64,000 nucleotides of DNA from Bdellovibrio sp. NC01 (GTDB lineage: Bacteria > Bdellovibrionota > Bdellovibrionia > Bdellovibrionales > Bdellovibrionaceae), in contig NZ_CP030034.1 in the NCBI RefSeq assembly GCF_006874625.1, forward strand, positions 682,001 to 746,000, written 5' to 3'. This document shows positions 28,606 through 37,024 of this stretch, one piece after another; positions within the stretch are counted from its first letter, which is position 1, and each line of letters starts with the position of its first letter. Made by a program: the position numbers and the translations under genes. The notes beneath the pieces are model-generated. The model was not told where the DNA came from. It saw only the letters and a list, made by a program, of their open reading frames with translations, and did not search any database.

Positions 28606-29280
28606 CTAGTTCGGGAATTCGCGACGGCAGTCTTCTAAAAGCTGTTTTTTGGGAACGGTATTGCAAGAACTCATAAGCCCACGGAGGACGTCGAGTTTGC
28701 GAGATTCTGACTGAATTTGCGCCCAGTGAGTTTTAATGCCGGTCATTTCAGAAAGCACGACGCCTTCTAAGCGCAACGCGAGTTTGAAATTGCTCGTTCC
28801 TGTGGGTGCATTCCAAATATCTGTCATGATCATGCGCATAGATTTCGGGAAAGCTTTGTTGAAAAAGCCCAACTCTTCCATCTTCATGCGAAACGAAGGA
28901 TCTTGCAGGGCCGACGCTTTTTGCGTTTTGTAGAAGCTTTGCAAGTATTCACCACGTTCATTCAAAAACCGTTCATGATCTAACGCGCTGGCATTGCACA
29001 GGGTTGAGCACAGAGGGGGAGATTTGCGTTTTTGAATGTCAGCAGAGATTTGTTCGAACTGTTCGATCTCTAAAATATATTTTTGCCCCAGACGACTGAC
29101 TTCTTTGATGTTGTGATCGGCATTGGGATTGGCAGAAATATTTGTCAGAGTTTGCACCGTGAAATATGACAACGCCGTCGTCGAAACGAGAGCAAAAACT
29201 ACAACAGCCATGACGATGACTCCGCATAATTTTGCCAAAGACAAAAGCAGAGTTTTAAGAGCCGATCCCACGAAAACCAT
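28606..29280 (-). CDS. Membrane-anchored protein of unknown function
   Basis: The 224-residue product has a hydrophobic N-terminal helix (about residues 7-40, SLAKLCGVIVMAVVVFALV) and a helical, probably periplasmic, remainder with a CSTLCNAS cysteine pair (about residue 91) and SCNTVPKKQLLEDC near the end. No family recognised. It is third in a minus-strand set after the Hint lipoprotein and a second anchored protein (gap 21 bases), so the three may act together. Confidence 0.6.
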   Translation of the reverse strand: MVFVGSALKTLLLSLAKLCGVIVMAVVVFALVSTTALSYFTVQTLTNISANPNADHNIKEVSRLGQKYILEIEQFEQISADIQKRKSPPLCSTLCNASALDHERFLNERGEYLQSFYKTQKASALQDPSFRMKMEELGFFNKAFPKSMRMIMTDIWNAPTGTSNFKLALRLEGVVLSEMTGIKTHWAQIQSESRKLDVLRGLMSSCNTVPKKQLLEDCRREFPN

Positions 29281-29301
29281 GGGATCGATCGTAGCAAAAA
29301 A

Positions 29302-30030
29302 TTATTGCTCAGTCGCCAAAGAAGCGGACTCAGCCAGATTATTCTCTTGCTGCTTCTTTACGTTGGCCCAGATCTTTTGACTGACGGGTCCAGGTAAAGC
29401 CGCGGCAATATTCGCATCAGCATCTGGGTCGACAGCGGACCAGGTAAAAAGGACCTCGGCTTTTACGCCAGCCAAAGCTTTTCGTGATGCCATATCGGTT
29501 TGTTCATTATCGACGGCAGGATCTGCGGCAACAGCTTGCAGGACCTTCACGACTTCGTCATGCTGACTACCTTTCAGTGCTTCAAATAAAAAATCCACTG
29601 CGATGTTTTGATTGTGCGACATCGTATTGTCTAAAGCAGCAGTTAGCAAAACGGATTTTAGCGAGCGAATGAACGCCACATCGTTAATCAGTTTTTTCTT
29701 CGCCACTTTGTCATGTTCAAGAAGCAACGCCTTATTGGAAATCATCGCAAATTTATCAAGCTCTGCATGAAATTTATAATCAGCCCAAAACTTTTTAGAT
29801 TTCTCTAATGAAGGTGAGGGCAGAGCAGCGACAGCGGGCGCCGTCGCTACAGGTTGTGAACTTGGAGTTCGCGATTCCATTTGCGTCTCTGCATTCGTGT
29901 CGTTGATCGCTGGCATAGCGACCGAGCTTAATTTTATTTCCGGGTGTTTAGGTGGTGCCGGGACCAAGGAGATCGCGGCCCCGACACCTATCGCAACTAG
30001 CACACTTGGAATAATTATTTTCTTGCTCAT
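29302..30030 (-). CDS. Anchored periplasmic protein of unknown function
   Basis: The 242-residue product has an N-terminal membrane segment (MSKKIIIPSVLVAIGVGAAI), a Pro/Ala/Ser linker (about residues 22-75) and a helical domain (about 78-225) of HEAT-like look (KVLQAVAADPAVDNEQ). The start codon shares its A with the stop of the lipoprotein gene (TAATG), a sign of translational coupling. Family unknown. Confidence 0.62.
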   Translation of the reverse strand: MSKKIIIPSVLVAIGVGAAISLVPAPPKHPEIKLSSVAMPAINDTNAETQMESRTPSSQPVATAPAVAALPSPSLEKSKKFWADYKFHAELDKFAMISNKALLLEHDKVAKKKLINDVAFIRSLKSVLLTAALDNTMSHNQNIAVDFLFEALKGSQHDEVVKVLQAVAADPAVDNEQTDMASRKALAGVKAEVLFTWSAVDPDADANIAAALPGPVSQKIWANVKKQQENNLAESASLATEQ

Positions 30031-32786
30031 TATTTAAATACTCCACGAGTCAATTTATCTTTGAACAAGGCACGGTTTAAGTCTTTGGCGTTTCTATCCA
30101 TTTGGAAGTAAGCCGTACCGTTTAAGTAACCGTTTGTAATCACGATGTTGTGGTACACGTCGTTTGAATTCACAAACACGTTATAAACTTTACCGAAGTA
30201 CTTCGTATTCTCGATGGATACGATTGGGTCTAATTTACCGCCCAACTCGACAAGTGCTTCTCCGGCTTTGAAGTCTTCAGCAGCCTTCATTGAACCGTCA
30301 GCAGTCAAGATTGGATGGTTCGGAGTGACTTTCAATTGACGACCTGATTTCATTTTGAATACCAAGATGTCGTGTTCAGTGTCGATCAACTCTGTCACCC
30401 ATTCGTCAACTTTTGTATTTGCCAATGCCGTACTGCTGATGGAACCGCCGTTTTGCATTGTCATAACTTTCTTCTCGTTGTTCGTCAGAGCATCAAGGAA
30501 AGTTGTGTACTTCATGGATTTCGCAGCTTTTGCCTCCACAAGGATCTGCTGATCAGGAGTCGCGCAAGACGATACGCACACAGTTGCTACGTAGACCGTC
30601 GCTGGCATCACACAATCCGCATTTTTATTTTTCGGAGCAATCCATGGTTTTTCTGGTTTGTAAGCGTAGTTCATGAATGTTGGATACAATTCACGACTTG
30701 AACCGCCCACAGTTACATTCGTACCACCCACTCTGATTGCAACATCGGCAAAGTTCGTTAAGAACTCTTTGATGATTGGAAGTTTGTCCTGACATTTCAC
30801 CATCCAGTCGTAACGACCTTTAGCTTCTGTATTGCTTAAAGAGTCTTGTGAACAGCGCATAGCCACGTAGTCACGGCAGTAAGCCTCTTCAACCCACGCA
30901 GTTGGAGTTTCTACTGAACTTTCAAGTTGAACCGAGTGATCGATACAAGCGTAAGTATTTGTAGTCACCACATCGCGTGTTTTTACGATCACACCAATTT
31001 GGTTTTTAGGACATGTATTAGAGCTATTTGCTTCCTCTTCACGAGTCGACTGTTCTTGTCTGCGAACAGCATCTGGATTTCCGTCACAAACGCGTTCTTC
31101 AACAGGAGCTGCACCCGTACAACGAGCACTGTCTGCTTGATTACCTTTGTCGTCTTTACATACGAAGATACGCGATTGCTTACCACCGCAGTCCGCAGAA
31201 CATGCAGTGAATGTATCCGTACCAACCCAAGAGTAAACTGGACATTGACCCGCAGTTTTAATGGTACCTTGGCGAGCGTTGCTAGAAATCACTTGGCCAT
31301 CAGTACAAACTTGGTCAGAAATTTGTGTATAGATATCAAAGATACCTGTTTCACCGTAAGCACAAGTTTTTGCTACTTGCACTTCGCCAGTCTCAACACC
31401 AGTTTTCACTGTGCCGTGGGAACCGAAGGCACCGCAACCATCATGACAGATCAATTGGTTTGCAGATGCTGAACCTGAAAGAACACCGTTATTACAAGTA
31501 CGTGATTCACTGACTGTCGAGCACGAACCTGCTGGGCTTGCTGAAGTATAAAGGACTTTAGAAGCACCGTTAGCAAGCAATGAACCGTCAGGCAATGTAC
31601 ATGACTGTCCTTCGCAAGGGCCTTCGTTTGTAACTTCTTTCGTACGAGAAACTTCAACCCATTTCAAACTTTCAACAACAAGTTTACATTCTTCGACCAC
31701 ACGGTCGCGGTAAGAAACAGTTTTAGTACCGTTCACGCCGCAAGACTGTGAGTCAGAATAGATTTCACCTTGGCTTTCACGAGTTTGTCCTTGAACCGAA
31801 CAAGCTTGTGGATCCACCGGAACTTCAGGTTGTACCGGCACATCAAGGTTTTCAATGACGTTGATTGAATGATCCAAAGTGATCCAAGGATCGTTACTGC
31901 CGACCAAATATAAAGTCGCAGTCACAGGATATTTACCCACCGCTTGATAAGCGTGAGTCACAGACTGATTTGAAGCTGTCGAGTTATCTCCGAAATTCCA
32001 TTTAACCGCGCCAATTTTATTGGTTAAGCACTCGGGGATATAAACTGACATTGAGGTATCGACTTTGACTTTCGCCTCTGTCGCACCAGAAATCGCAAGG
32101 TCGGTGATGCAACTCATGTTGTCTTGGAATGTGATGATTGTAAGGCGTTGACTTAGGTTCGTCACCGCACCGTTTGCATCCGTAACCGCGACGCTGACGT
32201 TATAAACGCCCGCATAATAATAGGTATGGCTTGCGGCTTGGACGTTATTAACGATGTTTGTGCTAGCGTTACCGTTCGCATCACCGAAGTTCCATACAAT
32301 TGATGTCGGAGTGATATTGCTTGGAACAATAAGATTAAAGGCGATGTCATTTAATGCAAAACCGGCTTGGGGTCCCGAGATCATCATCTGATCTGAAACG
32401 ACAGCCGTTTTATAAGACACAACTTGAGTCGTTGCCGAAGTCGTCGACTTTTCTTGTGCCGTAATCACATAGCTACCAGACAATTTGAACACGGAAGTTA
32501 AGCCAGAAGATGTTGTCGTCGCTTTTGAAGCACCGATCGCTTTCCATGCGACCTTTTGACCGTTCACGCAAGTACCAGAGTCACTCAATGAATATTTAAC
32601 TGCGCTACCGCTGGCAGCGGCTTCAGTACCAATGATCTTCAAAGCTTGATCGCTATCTGAAGAAGTGCCATTCACACACTCTACAGCAGCGGCTTGAACA
32701 GCATCAGCGCTTTCCGTCGTAGCGGTTTTTTGGCATCCAGCGAACAGAACAAAACTCAGGGGCAGTAAGACTCTTCCGTAGTTCAT
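30030..32786 (-). CDS. Lipoprotein with PKD, TSP1-like and C-terminal Hint domains
   Basis: The ATG at 32786 opens MNYGRVLLPLSFVLFAGC, a lipobox ending in Cys18, so the 918-residue protein is lipid-anchored. Two PKD-like domains show IVWNFGDANG (about residue 160) and VKWNFGDNST (about 255). A Cys-rich middle contains ACSADCGGKQSRIFVCKDD (about residue 520), which resembles a thrombospondin type 1 repeat. Residues about 737-918 are a Hint (hedgehog/intein-like) domain: initial Cys in SSCATPDQQIL, KVTPNHPILTADG, VYNVFV, and late HNIV-x-x-NGYLNGT. Hint domains self-cleave or add nucleophiles to the upstream part. Surface display with autoprocessing is inferred. The gene heads an operon with two anchored proteins. 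Confidence 0.8.
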   Translation of the reverse strand: MNYGRVLLPLSFVLFAGCQKTATTESADAVQAAAVECVNGTSSDSDQALKIIGTEAAASGSAVKYSLSDSGTCVNGQKVAWKAIGASKATTTSSGLTSVFKLSGSYVITAQEKSTTSATTQVVSYKTAVVSDQMMISGPQAGFALNDIAFNLIVPSNITPTSIVWNFGDANGNASTNIVNNVQAASHTYYYAGVYNVSVAVTDANGAVTNLSQRLTIITFQDNMSCITDLAISGATEAKVKVDTSMSVYIPECLTNKIGAVKWNFGDNSTASNQSVTHAYQAVGKYPVTATLYLVGSNDPWITLDHSINVIENLDVPVQPEVPVDPQACSVQGQTRESQGEIYSDSQSCGVNGTKTVSYRDRVVEECKLVVESLKWVEVSRTKEVTNEGPCEGQSCTLPDGSLLANGASKVLYTSASPAGSCSTVSESRTCNNGVLSGSASANQLICHDGCGAFGSHGTVKTGVETGEVQVAKTCAYGETGIFDIYTQISDQVCTDGQVISSNARQGTIKTAGQCPVYSWVGTDTFTACSADCGGKQSRIFVCKDDKGNQADSARCTGAAPVEERVCDGNPDAVRRQEQSTREEEANSSNTCPKNQIGVIVKTRDVVTTNTYACIDHSVQLESSVETPTAWVEEAYCRDYVAMRCSQDSLSNTEAKGRYDWMVKCQDKLPIIKEFLTNFADVAIRVGGTNVTVGGSSRELYPTFMNYAYKPEKPWIAPKNKNADCVMPATVYVATVCVSSCATPDQQILVEAKAAKSMKYTTFLDALTNNEKKVMTMQNGGSISSTALANTKVDEWVTELIDTEHDILVFKMKSGRQLKVTPNHPILTADGSMKAAEDFKAGEALVELGGKLDPIVSIENTKYFGKVYNVFVNSNDVYHNIVITNGYLNGTAYFQMDRNAKDLNRALFKDKLTRGVFK

Positions 32787-33083
32787 CGGCCACTCCTTGC
32801 TTGCATGCTTTAATGTTTGCAACCAAGTTCGAAAGTCACAATAAAAAAACCGGATACGAATCAAGGTGAGTTGTATCACCAACTAAGACTTTTACACTTT
32901 TTTGGATCTTTTAAATGTCGTTTTTTTCGTCGAATAATTCGACATCTTCAGAGGAGAAATCGTTATCTATATAAATAGTGAATTCGCGGCAGATGCGCCA
33001 CTAGTAAGTCTTTGCAAGGTTTGGCTGGAGGCCTTCAAGCATAGATGTGCTATGCGCTGATATTCTTCTTTGGTAAGCAAGAC
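32787..33083. other. Intergenic region upstream of the Hint lipoprotein gene
   Basis: About 300 bases with no gene seen on either strand. It must hold the lipoprotein promoter on the minus strand (a ribosome binding site AAGGAGTGG precedes its ATG). The other end adjoins the H1-like terminator. AT-rich tracts (TTTTTTGGATCTTTTAAATG, ATAAATAGTG) are present but no clear operator. Confidence 0.5.
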
Positions 33084-33118
33084 AAAAAAAGAAGCCTCTG
33101 GGTTGCAGAGGCTTCTTA
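33084..33118 (-). terminator. Terminator of the histone H1-like gene
   Basis: On the minus strand AAGAAGCCTCTG pairs with CAGAGGCTTCTT around CAACC and is followed by seven T residues. Confidence 0.92.
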
Positions 33119-33150
33119 GACAGTTTGCTCAAATTTTTGCTGTAAAAGAC

Positions 33151-33615
33151 TTACGCTTTTTTAGAAGTCTTTTTGCGAGTCGTAGCAGCTTTTTTAGTTA
33201 CTGCTTTTTTCGTCGTTTTTGCAGGCGCTTTTTTAGCGGCTTTCTTCGTTGTTTTTTTCTTCGCTTGCTTGCTGAAGATTTTTTTCTCTAGTTCAGCTTT
33301 TTTCGCCAATGCTCTTTTCTTAGCAACAACGATGTTCTTTTCTAAAGAGTCAGCAGACTTTTTGATTTTGCTCAAAGTGCTGTTTACTTCTTTTTCAAGT
33401 TTCTCTTCAGAGACGCTAAGAACTTTTACGATCTCTTGGTATTTCTGCCAAGCTTGTTCCAACTTCTCGTCTTTCTTTTGATCGAAAGCGCCTTTAAGTT
33501 CAGCTTCGCGTTTTTTAATTTCGTCGCTCAACGTTTGGAAGCTCTCAAGAAGGCTTTGAACGTTTTTGTTTGAAGAAAGATTGTTCAAGATTTTTTGGAA
33601 CGCTGTAGATGCCAT
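33151..33615 (-). CDS. Histone H1-like Lys/Ala-rich DNA-binding protein
   Basis: The ATG at 33615 has AAGGAGAC upstream. The 154-residue product has a helical, coiled-coil-like N-terminal part (about residues 1-100, with EKLEQAWQKYQEIVKVL) and a strongly basic tail of Lys, Ala and Thr in H1-like AKKA/TTKKA units (about 105-154). Such proteins coat or compact nucleoid DNA, for example Hc1/Hc2 of Chlamydia; in a predator a role in the compact attack-phase nucleoid is plausible but inferred. The N-terminal part also recalls phasin-type coiled coils. It is monocistronic. Confidence 0.75.
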   Translation of the reverse strand: MASTAFQKILNNLSSNKNVQSLLESFQTLSDEIKKREAELKGAFDQKKDEKLEQAWQKYQEIVKVLSVSEEKLEKEVNSTLSKIKKSADSLEKNIVVAKKRALAKKAELEKKIFSKQAKKKTTKKAAKKAPAKTTKKAVTKKAATTRKKTSKKA

Positions 33616-34015: not shown

Positions 34016-35353
34016 TTATAGAGTAAATTTGAAGTCTTTGATTAGCATGCCAGGAATCTTTTTGCCACCGAAAGAGCGGTTCTCGTAAGTGGAAACTTCG
34101 GGGTCCACCTCTTGGAACTCAGTCACGGCTAACAAGTTTGCTCCTAGGCAATCATAAAGGCTTTCGTCAAAACGCAAATCCGCGATGGGTGCAACGATTT
34201 CGCCGTTTTCCACCCAGAAACACGCATAACGAGTCATTCCCGTGATTCGAGCATTCATTCTATCGGACCAATTCAAGTAATGCAGATTCGATAAATAGAG
34301 TCCCGTACCTAGTTCTTTCAAAATGTCTTGTTCTTTCAAAGTGCCAGGCAAGATTTCCAATGCGCGTGGGTACTCACCCTCGGCCGCATTGTTGCCTTTC
34401 ACATCGTACTCTTTTGCAGAACGACTCGAGATCAGATAGTTCTTCAGCTCACCTTTGGTAATAAGTTCCAAAGTCTCTGGCGCAACTTCACCCAAAGAGT
34501 TGTATTGATGAGTTAATCCCATCGTGTAGTTTTCACGAAGCGACAACAATGGCGATAGGTGTTTTTCTTTATTCGCCAATTTTGTCAAAGAGCTATTGCC
34601 TTGTTTGTAGCCATTGAAGCTGAGTGAGCCCCAATAGAACATTGTCGAAAGTTCAGCAACTGCACCAGGAGCCAAGTAAGTACGATACGCACCCGGAGCC
34701 AGAACTTTTTTCGGGCGGTCCATCAAGCCCAATAAGTTTTTCGACTGCGCAAGTTTGGCTTCGAAAGCTTGTTGATCCCAACTTCTGCCGGCGTAAGAAC
34801 CTTTCACGGCTTTTTCGCCCATATACAAAGAGTAATCCATAAAGAATGACTCATTCGCGAACCAGTGGCTTTGGCCTTTCGAGTTTCTGTTTGCAGAAAT
34901 CAAAGCACCACCGCAGTAAAGACCAGCAAGGTCACTGCCTTGTGCAGCACGCGTGATCGAAACGAAAAGGTCTTCGTCATTCAACAAATAACCTTTCACT
35001 GTCTTATCACTGCTGCCATTGTTTTGGATTGGCACAATGTATGGATCTTCCGGAAGTAAATCACACTCTTTGCGAGCTTCTGCCAACCAATGATCGGCGC
35101 GTTTTTTATCTTCAGCAGTCACACCCGTGATTGAAAAACTTAAATTTGCGGATTTGCCTTTGCTTTGTAGACTTAAACCCAAAGTGCGTTGTTCAACGAA
35201 AGTGTTTTGGCGAACTTTGTTGTTATTAAATCTTACGAAGGTTGTTTCTTCTGCATGCAAATTCAAAGTAGCTGCTTCATCAGCAGTCAATTGACCAAGA
35301 AGATAATCCGCTACTTCGTTGAAGGATTTTTTTGTCGATTCTGTGAAATTCAT
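34016..35353 (-). CDS. TldE/PmbA-like subunit of a TldD-TldE protease
   Basis: The ATG at 35353 (MNFTESTKKSFNEVADYLLG) gives 445 residues. The sequence follows the PmbA/TldE plan: N-terminal domain with FVRFNNNKVRQNT, central DLAGLYCGGA region, RSWDQQAFE, and the C-terminal beta part with TRYACFWVENGEI and AVTEFQEVDPEVSTYENRS. TldE lacks metal ligands and forms a heterodimer with TldD, which cleaves unfolded or modified peptides. It is directly downstream of tldD (adjacent codons), so the two are an operon. Confidence 0.85.
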   Translation of the reverse strand: MNFTESTKKSFNEVADYLLGQLTADEAATLNLHAEETTFVRFNNNKVRQNTFVEQRTLGLSLQSKGKSANLSFSITGVTAEDKKRADHWLAEARKECDLLPEDPYIVPIQNNGSSDKTVKGYLLNDEDLFVSITRAAQGSDLAGLYCGGALISANRNSKGQSHWFANESFFMDYSLYMGEKAVKGSYAGRSWDQQAFEAKLAQSKNLLGLMDRPKKVLAPGAYRTYLAPGAVAELSTMFYWGSLSFNGYKQGNSSLTKLANKEKHLSPLLSLRENYTMGLTHQYNSLGEVAPETLELITKGELKNYLISSRSAKEYDVKGNNAAEGEYPRALEILPGTLKEQDILKELGTGLYLSNLHYLNWSDRMNARITGMTRYACFWVENGEIVAPIADLRFDESLYDCLGANLLAVTEFQEVDPEVSTYENRSFGGKKIPGMLIKDFKFTL

Positions 35354-35371
35354 TTTGCGTCCTTCCTGCAA

Positions 35372-36805
35372 TTAAGCGCCGAAAACTTCAACGTTAGAGA
35401 ACAAGCAATAAGGAGTCGTATGGCCCACACGAATCACTTGGTTCGGTTCGCCCTTACCACAATACGGAGAACCGTAAGTTTCGCGATTTTCGCTGACAGC
35501 TTTTAAGCTGTTCCAGAATTTCACAGTCGTGCCGCGATAGTTTGGATTTTTCACCGTCTTCGTTAATTTGCCGTTTTCGATAAGCTGTCCGTACTCGCAA
35601 CCGAATTGGAATTTGTTGCGGTAGTCATCGATCGACCAAGATTTATTCGCATGCATGAACACACCACGCTCTGTCGATGCGATCATGTCAGCAAGTTTGC
35701 TGTTACCAGCTTCCAAGTTGATATTCGCCATACGATCAATCGGTGCACGATTCCAAGAAGACGAACGTGTGTTCGCAACTCCTGGTAAAGTTAAACGAGC
35801 TTGCGATTCAAGACCGCCTAAGCCACGTACTAGCAAACCGTCTTTGATCAAGAATTCTTTCGTCGCTGGATTGCCAGAATCGTCGAATGAATATGAAGCC
35901 AAAGCATCAGGGATCGTTGGATCGAAAGTCACGTTCATCAATTTTGAACCGTATTGCAAGTGGCCGAAGTCTTGTGGTTTCACGAAGCTCCAGCCAGCAT
36001 AGTTGCGCTCGTCACCCAAGATGCGATCGTACTCAAGCGGATGGCCGATAGATTCATGCACTTGCAAAGTCATTTGATCCGGAGCGATTAACAAGTCCAT
36101 CACTGTGTCAGGACAATTTTCTGCGTGAACTAATTCTACCGCTTCAGTAGCAATTCTTTTTGAACGTTCCAAAATAGAAGCACGATCAAAAACTTCAGCA
36201 CCGATTTGCAAACAACGCGCAAGACCGCCTTGGTCAGAACGAGTTTGTGTTTCAGTACCATCTGAAGCTGTCGCTGAAAAATCTGTGCTGACGATAGAGA
36301 ATTTTTGGTGAACGTCAGATCCCGAAGTGCTGACCGTGAAGAATTCTGATTCGACGATCATCGCTGTTGCTGAACGGCTGACGATTTTGTCTGAAACTTT
36401 CATCGCGCGAGTAGCATCGACGAAAATATCCGAGATTTCCTTCGCAGAAATGGAATCCATCGCACGCGTGACGGGTGAATGATAATGGCCCATAGCTTTG
36501 GGACGCTGCAAAATAGAAAAGTCATGAACTTTGAACGCCGAAGCTTGGCGCGCCATCAGGGTTGCTTTGGCAAAAGCTCGTTTAATGCCCTCTTCCGAAA
36601 GGTCGCTTGTGCCGGCATAACCGAAATGACCATTGACCAAAACCTCGGCCATCAAACCGTGATCGAACGAGATGCTGTTACGATCTGGTTTTTCATCACG
36701 AACCGTGCGGTAAGTAGTTTTTTCTGTCACGTGACGCAATTGGGCCCAGTCAACCGACCCCTGAAGTTGCGAGAGAGTTTTGTGCAAACCGATATTCAAA
36801 TTCAC
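35372..36805 (-). CDS. tldD: TldD-like metalloprotease subunit
   Basis: A GTG at 36805 with AAAGG 7 bases upstream is the preferred start (VNLNIGLHKTLSQLQ); a TTG 18 bases earlier is possible. The metal-binding helix LQVHESIGHPLEYDR (about residue 245) carries the HExxxH motif of TldD, and GLGGLESQARLTLPG and ERGVFMHANKSWSIDDYRNKFQFGCEYGQLI are further family blocks. With TldE it forms a zinc-dependent peptidase acting on unfolded or natural-product peptides. The presence of the full motif indicates activity. Role here is not obvious from neighbours. Confidence 0.9.
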   Translation of the reverse strand: MNLNIGLHKTLSQLQGSVDWAQLRHVTEKTTYRTVRDEKPDRNSISFDHGLMAEVLVNGHFGYAGTSDLSEEGIKRAFAKATLMARQASAFKVHDFSILQRPKAMGHYHSPVTRAMDSISAKEISDIFVDATRAMKVSDKIVSRSATAMIVESEFFTVSTSGSDVHQKFSIVSTDFSATASDGTETQTRSDQGGLARCLQIGAEVFDRASILERSKRIATEAVELVHAENCPDTVMDLLIAPDQMTLQVHESIGHPLEYDRILGDERNYAGWSFVKPQDFGHLQYGSKLMNVTFDPTIPDALASYSFDDSGNPATKEFLIKDGLLVRGLGGLESQARLTLPGVANTRSSSWNRAPIDRMANINLEAGNSKLADMIASTERGVFMHANKSWSIDDYRNKFQFGCEYGQLIENGKLTKTVKNPNYRGTTVKFWNSLKAVSENRETYGSPYCGKGEPNQVIRVGHTTPYCLFSNVEVFGA

Positions 36806-37024
36806 AGTTCGACCTTTCTTCAAAGAAATTCGCTATTTCTCTATCGGATCAGAGAGGAAAAGACAACTTTCGACAGCCATTTTTGTGGAAAGTTCCATGA
36901 GTTAGTACCTCAAGTGTAACAGGGACAAATTGAGTCCGTTTATTCTTGGCAAGGTGATTGCTTTAGTAAAAGCGCAGGATGTTCCTGGTGCCAAACCGAA
37001 CCATCACCAGGACGGGAGTGAAAC

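Follow-up and report, generated by a model that had tools for sequence, protein, structure and literature searches.

A Bd2400 orthologue with a predicted self-processing Hint domain and an obligate membrane-anchored partner in Bdellovibrio

The gene for a lipoprotein of Bdellovibrio sp. NC01 ends in a region resembling the Hint domains of inteins and hedgehog proteins, and its stop codon overlaps the start of the next gene. This arrangement raises the question of whether the domain would splice, cleave or attach the protein that carries it, and of which neighboring genes belong to the same system. The window analyzed here is a stretch of 64,000 nucleotides (contig NZ_CP030034.1, positions 682,001 to 746,000). 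The 918-aa open reading frame runs on the minus strand of the window from an ATG at 32786 to a stop at 30030. Its features and those of the two genes that follow it are:

30030..32786, minus strand: 918-aa lipoprotein with two PKD domains, a Cys-rich/TSP1-like region, PPS-1 and a C-type BIL (Hint) domain; Bd2400 orthologue
32733..32786, minus strand: signal peptide and lipobox, residues 1-18, Cys18 being the lipidation site (sequence; LAGC at the equivalent place in orthologues)
31908..32327, minus strand: two PKD domains, about residues 154-293 (Pfam PKD_4 / PKD; phmmer to ColH PKD domains)
31083..31217, minus strand: TSP1-like domain, residues 524-568 (Pfam TSP1 profile, alignment)
30567..30878, minus strand: PPS-1-type Cys-rich segment, about residues 637-740, directly before Hint (alignment; name via PMC9185962)
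30567..30569, minus strand: residue 740 (Ser; S or G in 50/50 homologues), the -1 position of the predicted cleavage site
30114..30566, minus strand: Hint core, residues 741-891, with the C741 nucleophile, T821/H824 of block B, N869 of block F, and T891 (alignment and predicted structure)
30033..30113, minus strand: conserved C-terminal tail past the Hint core, residues 892-918 (alignment)
29302..30030, minus strand: 242-aa partner with one N-terminal hydrophobic anchor, translationally coupled (adjacency and co-occurrence)
28606..29280, minus strand: 224-aa anchored protein, a conserved gcvP neighbor outside the pair (in 23/24 genus genomes)

A preliminary description of this DNA had proposed a lipoprotein with a lipobox, two WNFGD-type PKD signatures and a Cys-rich ACSADCGG segment, and all of these are present. 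The lipobox reads FAGC at Cys18. The WNFGD motifs lie at residues 165 and 263, and the Pfam profiles PKD_4 (E 7e-19) and PKD (E 1e-12) match two stretches of the protein above cut-off; PKD profiles are matched in 16/16 of the orthologues scanned as well. The ACSADCGG segment is found at residue 528, in the TSP1-like domain. The TSP1_ADAMTS profile of Pfam falls below its cut-off on the 918-aa protein (E 5e-4, 20.7 bits vs 23.8). This weak score is probably no accident, since a TSP1 profile is found in all 16 orthologues at E<0.01, with a best E of 1.5e-7. Cysteines 529, 533, 543, 556 and 567 of the domain are invariant in a 16-row alignment. When the full-length model was searched with Foldseek, only generic beta-domain stacks (surface adhesins, complement) were returned, with no informative relative. 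It is noted that another Cys-rich segment, residues 385-480 (31347-31634, minus strand; CTLPDGS..SRTCNNGVLSG), has copies of ~35-59% identity in many other Bdellovibrio-family proteins.

Homologues of the 918-aa protein occur in 22/66 family genomes, full-length in most and with 45-69% identity. The connection to a named gene comes from the bd2400 qPCR primers printed in a 2024 paper on the quantification of Bdellovibrio bacteriovorus (PMC11271337). These primers translate to ATPEQQI and, reverse-complemented, to TMQSADS, which is the start of the Hint domain. Both match an orthologue that is 64% identical (L008) exactly, 122 bases apart, and the first also matches the window gene at 30543-30563 with three mismatches; therefore, as judged from sequence, the 918-aa lipoprotein is the orthologue of B. 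bacteriovorus Bd2400. The two have in common full-length orthology (63-64% identity), the domains, the start of Hint and the coupled partner gene, and they differ in species and in site: the pair is next to gcvP in strain NC01, and B. bacteriovorus has it elsewhere on the chromosome. C-type BIL domains were reportedly defined by Dori-Bachash and colleagues on Bd2400 itself, which is said to have a signal peptide, two PKD domains, PPS-1 and a C-type BIL. The same authors are said to have observed secretion of Bd2400, processing that depends on the stage of the life cycle, and N-terminal autocleavage in vitro. The central claim, that a surface lipoprotein of a predator carries a self-processing Hint domain, is thus already published for the orthologue Bd2400 and is not new in kind. 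The report concerned (Dori-Bachash et al. 2009, Funct Integr Genomics 9:153) is cited by PMC2797640, PMC9185962 and PMC3403396.

Several searches bear on the fold of the C-terminal domain. The Pfam Intein_splicing profile matches the 918-aa protein below cut-off (E 6e-5) and is matched in 20/21 orthologous C-termini; a profile built from the family matches inteins in the PDB, and the PT-HINT profile gives a weak match. An AlphaFold2 model was built of residues 632-918, with a mean pLDDT of 75. Compared with inteins, the model gives a Foldseek E of 3e-8, and its alignment to the intein 7oec has a VIA Z of 16.0 with an rmsd of 1.9 over 137 residues. Hedgehog (6tyy) follows with a Z of 15.4, and the BIL domain of Clostridium, CthBIL (2lwy), with a Z of 14.7. 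The predicted Hint fold is firmly supported by these comparisons. The preliminary description, which had noted a C-terminal Hint domain with a TPNHP motif (residues 821-825), was right on this point given the Intein_splicing matches and the structural matches at Z 15-16, and structure prediction, which it had named as a check, gives the Hint fold with good support.

The residues on which such reactions depend were compared in an alignment of 50 homologues drawn from across Bdellovibrionota. C741 and H824 are each conserved in 50/50, position 821 is Thr in 48/50 and Ser in 2/50, and N869, G890 and Q895 are invariant. At the position of the last Asn of an intein, the homologues have S31/T11/D7/A1, the residue here being T891 (G890-T891-A892). 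In the structural alignment T891, model residue 260, is matched with residue 440, the last of the RecA mini-intein. The terminal His-Asn is absent in 50/50 homologues. The preliminary description had read a final HN in the sequence, which was mistaken: H879-N880 is internal, 38 residues from the end of the protein, and unconserved, with His in 11/50 homologues. Since the terminal His-Asn is missing, splicing and C-terminal cleavage of the Hint domain are not expected from the sequence, and only the N-terminal half of the self-processing first proposed is still predicted. A single N-terminal cleavage at S740/C741, or a thioester transfer there, is likely on the pattern of conserved residues. 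The prediction that this predator surface lipoprotein carries a self-processing Hint domain is well supported.

We propose that C741, aided by T821 and H824, would carry out an N-S acyl shift. The thioester formed at S740 would be resolved by water or a small nucleophile, which would free a ~20-kDa Hint fragment from the lipidated ~76-kDa part and leave a new C-terminus on PPS-1. By calculation, residues 18-740 amount to 76.5 kDa without the lipid, and residues 741-918 to 19.8 kDa. We infer that this cleavage takes place in Bdellovibrio sp. NC01. For the whole explanation, a Bd2400 orthologue with N-terminal self-cleavage at S740/C741 and working as an obligate pair with the 242-aa protein, we estimate a probability of roughly 0.8.

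The segment directly upstream of the predicted cleavage site has R644, C645, R658, C665, C725 and C737 as nearly invariant residues. We take this Cys-rich segment before Hint to be PPS-1. A putative predator-specific domain of that name accompanies the C-type BILs (PMC9185962). Type A/B BIL domains (CthBIL4, 2lwy) share the fold and the N-terminal chemistry with the 918-aa protein; they differ from it in that the putative PPS-1 directly upstream and the lack of a terminal His-Asn place the latter in type C. The Hint fold, Cys1, the TxxH of block B and block F are likewise shared with inteins (Mtu RecA, Ssp DnaB, Npu DnaE). However, inteins end in His-Asn followed by Cys/Ser/Thr, whereas the 918-aa protein lacks these and has its Hint domain at the end of an exported lipoprotein. 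An intein or splicing element was rejected as a reading, the terminal His-Asn being absent in all homologues.

The hedgehog autoprocessing domain offers a further comparison, as a Hint fold that ends an exported protein and performs a single N-terminal acyl shift. By analogy to the attachment of cholesterol in hedgehog, the S740 thioester might react with an amine or an alcohol, whether of prey, of the partner protein or of a lipid, which would leave the lipoprotein covalently attached to it. No C-terminal cleavage machinery is left in the domain, an obligate partner is encoded next door, and the tail is conserved (Q895 50/50, N904 48/50) where hedgehog has its adduct-binding region, all of which would fit such a transfer. 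However, hedgehog has a sterol-recognition region that the 918-aa protein lacks, the 27-residue tail being far shorter; there is no known acceptor, and plain hydrolysis needs nothing extra. We therefore regard covalent attachment as unlikely. The length of the tail also bears on release of a C-terminal toxin by a pretoxin Hint domain, as in polymorphic toxins. Although the PT-HINT profile matches weakly, the 27 residues past the Hint core are conserved rather than variable and contain no toxin domain, and this reading, rejected for want of any cargo past the Hint core, is extremely improbable. Two homologues, L070 and L071, have post-Hint extensions of well over 100 residues.

C737 lies four residues before the C741 nucleophile in 49/50 homologues, C741 itself being present in 50/50, and a disulphide across C737-V-S-S-C741 could hold back cleavage of the precursor until reducing conditions are encountered, for instance inside prey. 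An engineered intein with a redox trap in its N-extein exists (3nzm, going by its title). However, the PPS-1 cysteines 645, 665, 725 and 737 are even in number and could pair internally, leaving C741 free; redox-gated release is accordingly a possible but doubtful elaboration. It should be mentioned that, as read from the sequence, C741 could be tied up outside the cytoplasm by a disulphide to C737, which would count against the cleavage model. The loss of the C-terminal catalytic residues would also be compatible with a degenerate Hint domain kept as a structural module that does not cleave, but Cys1 and the block B His are invariant across 50 divergent sequences, which makes this very unlikely. 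N-terminal self-cleavage remains the preferred reading.

The linked translation noted in the preliminary description is confirmed, the start of the 242-aa gene (29302-30030) lying inside the stop codon of the lipoprotein gene with a 1-base overlap, TAATG. In nearly all orthologous loci the spacing between the two genes is -4, -1 or +1 bases. A partner profile search finds matches in the same 22/66 family genomes as the lipoprotein and none in the 44/66 that lack it, although these genomes share ancestry and do not count as independent observations. Mapped on a GcvP tree (20 genus genomes), the presence and absence of the pair needs at least three gains or losses, with the two genes always together. 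The lipoprotein and the 242-aa partner are an obligate pair, and the lipoprotein would work as such with this coupled single-anchor protein. The partner has no Pfam or PDB relative, and its NCBIfam matches are weak and all below cut-off. The small machine with two anchored proteins suggested earlier is thus reduced to one: adjacency and co-occurrence in 22/22 genomes retain the 242-aa protein, whereas the 224-aa protein is a gcvP neighbor that is present without the lipoprotein. The 224-aa gene occurs in 23/24 genus genomes, mostly beside gcvP; it was rejected as a part of the machine, as its occurrence follows gcvP whether or not a genome has the pair.

The pair is missing from 10/24 genus genomes. 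Its distribution is patchy, at different chromosomal sites, and in one strain it is plasmid-borne. Here it lies between a 166-aa gene and the gcvP neighbor (window 29280-33151). No such pair, and no insert, is found at this site in G021, G011, G007 and G023. Since the site is empty in G021, G007 and G023 and these genomes hold the pair elsewhere, the two genes occupy different sites as one unit. Horizontal transfer within the genus cannot be claimed from tree conflict, as the Hint-protein and GcvP trees conflict weakly (G007 with G025, support 82/84); plasmid carriage and different sites are what was observed. In one contig search, the matches outside Bdellovibrio were to PKD only.

The region separating the 166-aa gene from the gcvP neighbor is itself a variable site (window 29280-33151 compared with L117-L122). 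The Bd2400 pair occupies it here and in G025; in G013 it holds a 1549-aa fibre-like protein (DUF5907) and a LamG lectin, and in G006 a PLD-domain protein. Upstream of the pair in the window (34016-36823, minus strand) are an ordinary, conserved TldD/PmbA-like gene pair and a DUF4286 gene. The plasmid-borne pair is on the 48-kb pBdHAGR2 of Bdellovibrio sp. HAGR004 (AP029178.1; L096 6129-9583), where both genes are annotated hypothetical and have a similar 4-base overlap, and an IS66 transposase is found ~5.6 kb upstream.

Further out in the phylum, a PPS-1-Hint gene precedes a relative of the 242-aa partner at 13 loci (iterated profile, E < 1e-39). In another arrangement, a short signal-peptide-PPS-1-Hint protein, ~285-300 aa in many, is followed directly by a 400-640-aa lipoprotein (L068, L072, L074-L079, L082-L085, L087). 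Among the downstream lipoproteins, 4/10 scanned reach Pfam Peptidase_S8, several others being truncated at the edge of the stretch analyzed. These two kinds of PPS-1-Hint gene pair were not found in the literature searched. A tentative and rather unlikely generalization is that the PPS-1-Hint proteins of Bdellovibrionota are the self-cleaving half of relocatable two-gene surface systems, the other half being a single-anchor partner or a downstream lipoprotein, several of them subtilase-like, and that cleavage at the CxxxC/Hint junction, maybe redox-gated, acts in prey contact.

With regard to predation, Bd2400 is down-regulated on prey entry, in data that are for Bd2400 and not strain NC01 (PMC2797640), and it is missing from the predator SKB1291214 (PMC5941755). 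Because Bd2400 is missing in that predator and the pair in 10/24 genus genomes, predation as such does not require the pair, which is an accessory factor and not core predation machinery. The pair would probably act in prey contact, in an accessory role at the surface of attack-phase cells, both the surface exposure of the lipoprotein and the role in prey contact being inferred.

The lipoprotein gene by itself is the orthologue of a characterized protein, and belongs to a little-followed published family of self-cleaving predator surface proteins that is widespread and under strong catalytic constraint. What is new here is the strict pairing with a second membrane-anchored protein, together with the two kinds of gene pair. 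The partner gene provides the Bd2400 family with an obligate partner that is open to pull-down and to deletion. Should the cleaved lipoprotein be received, gated or anchored by this partner, the purpose of C-type BIL cleavage would become directly testable.
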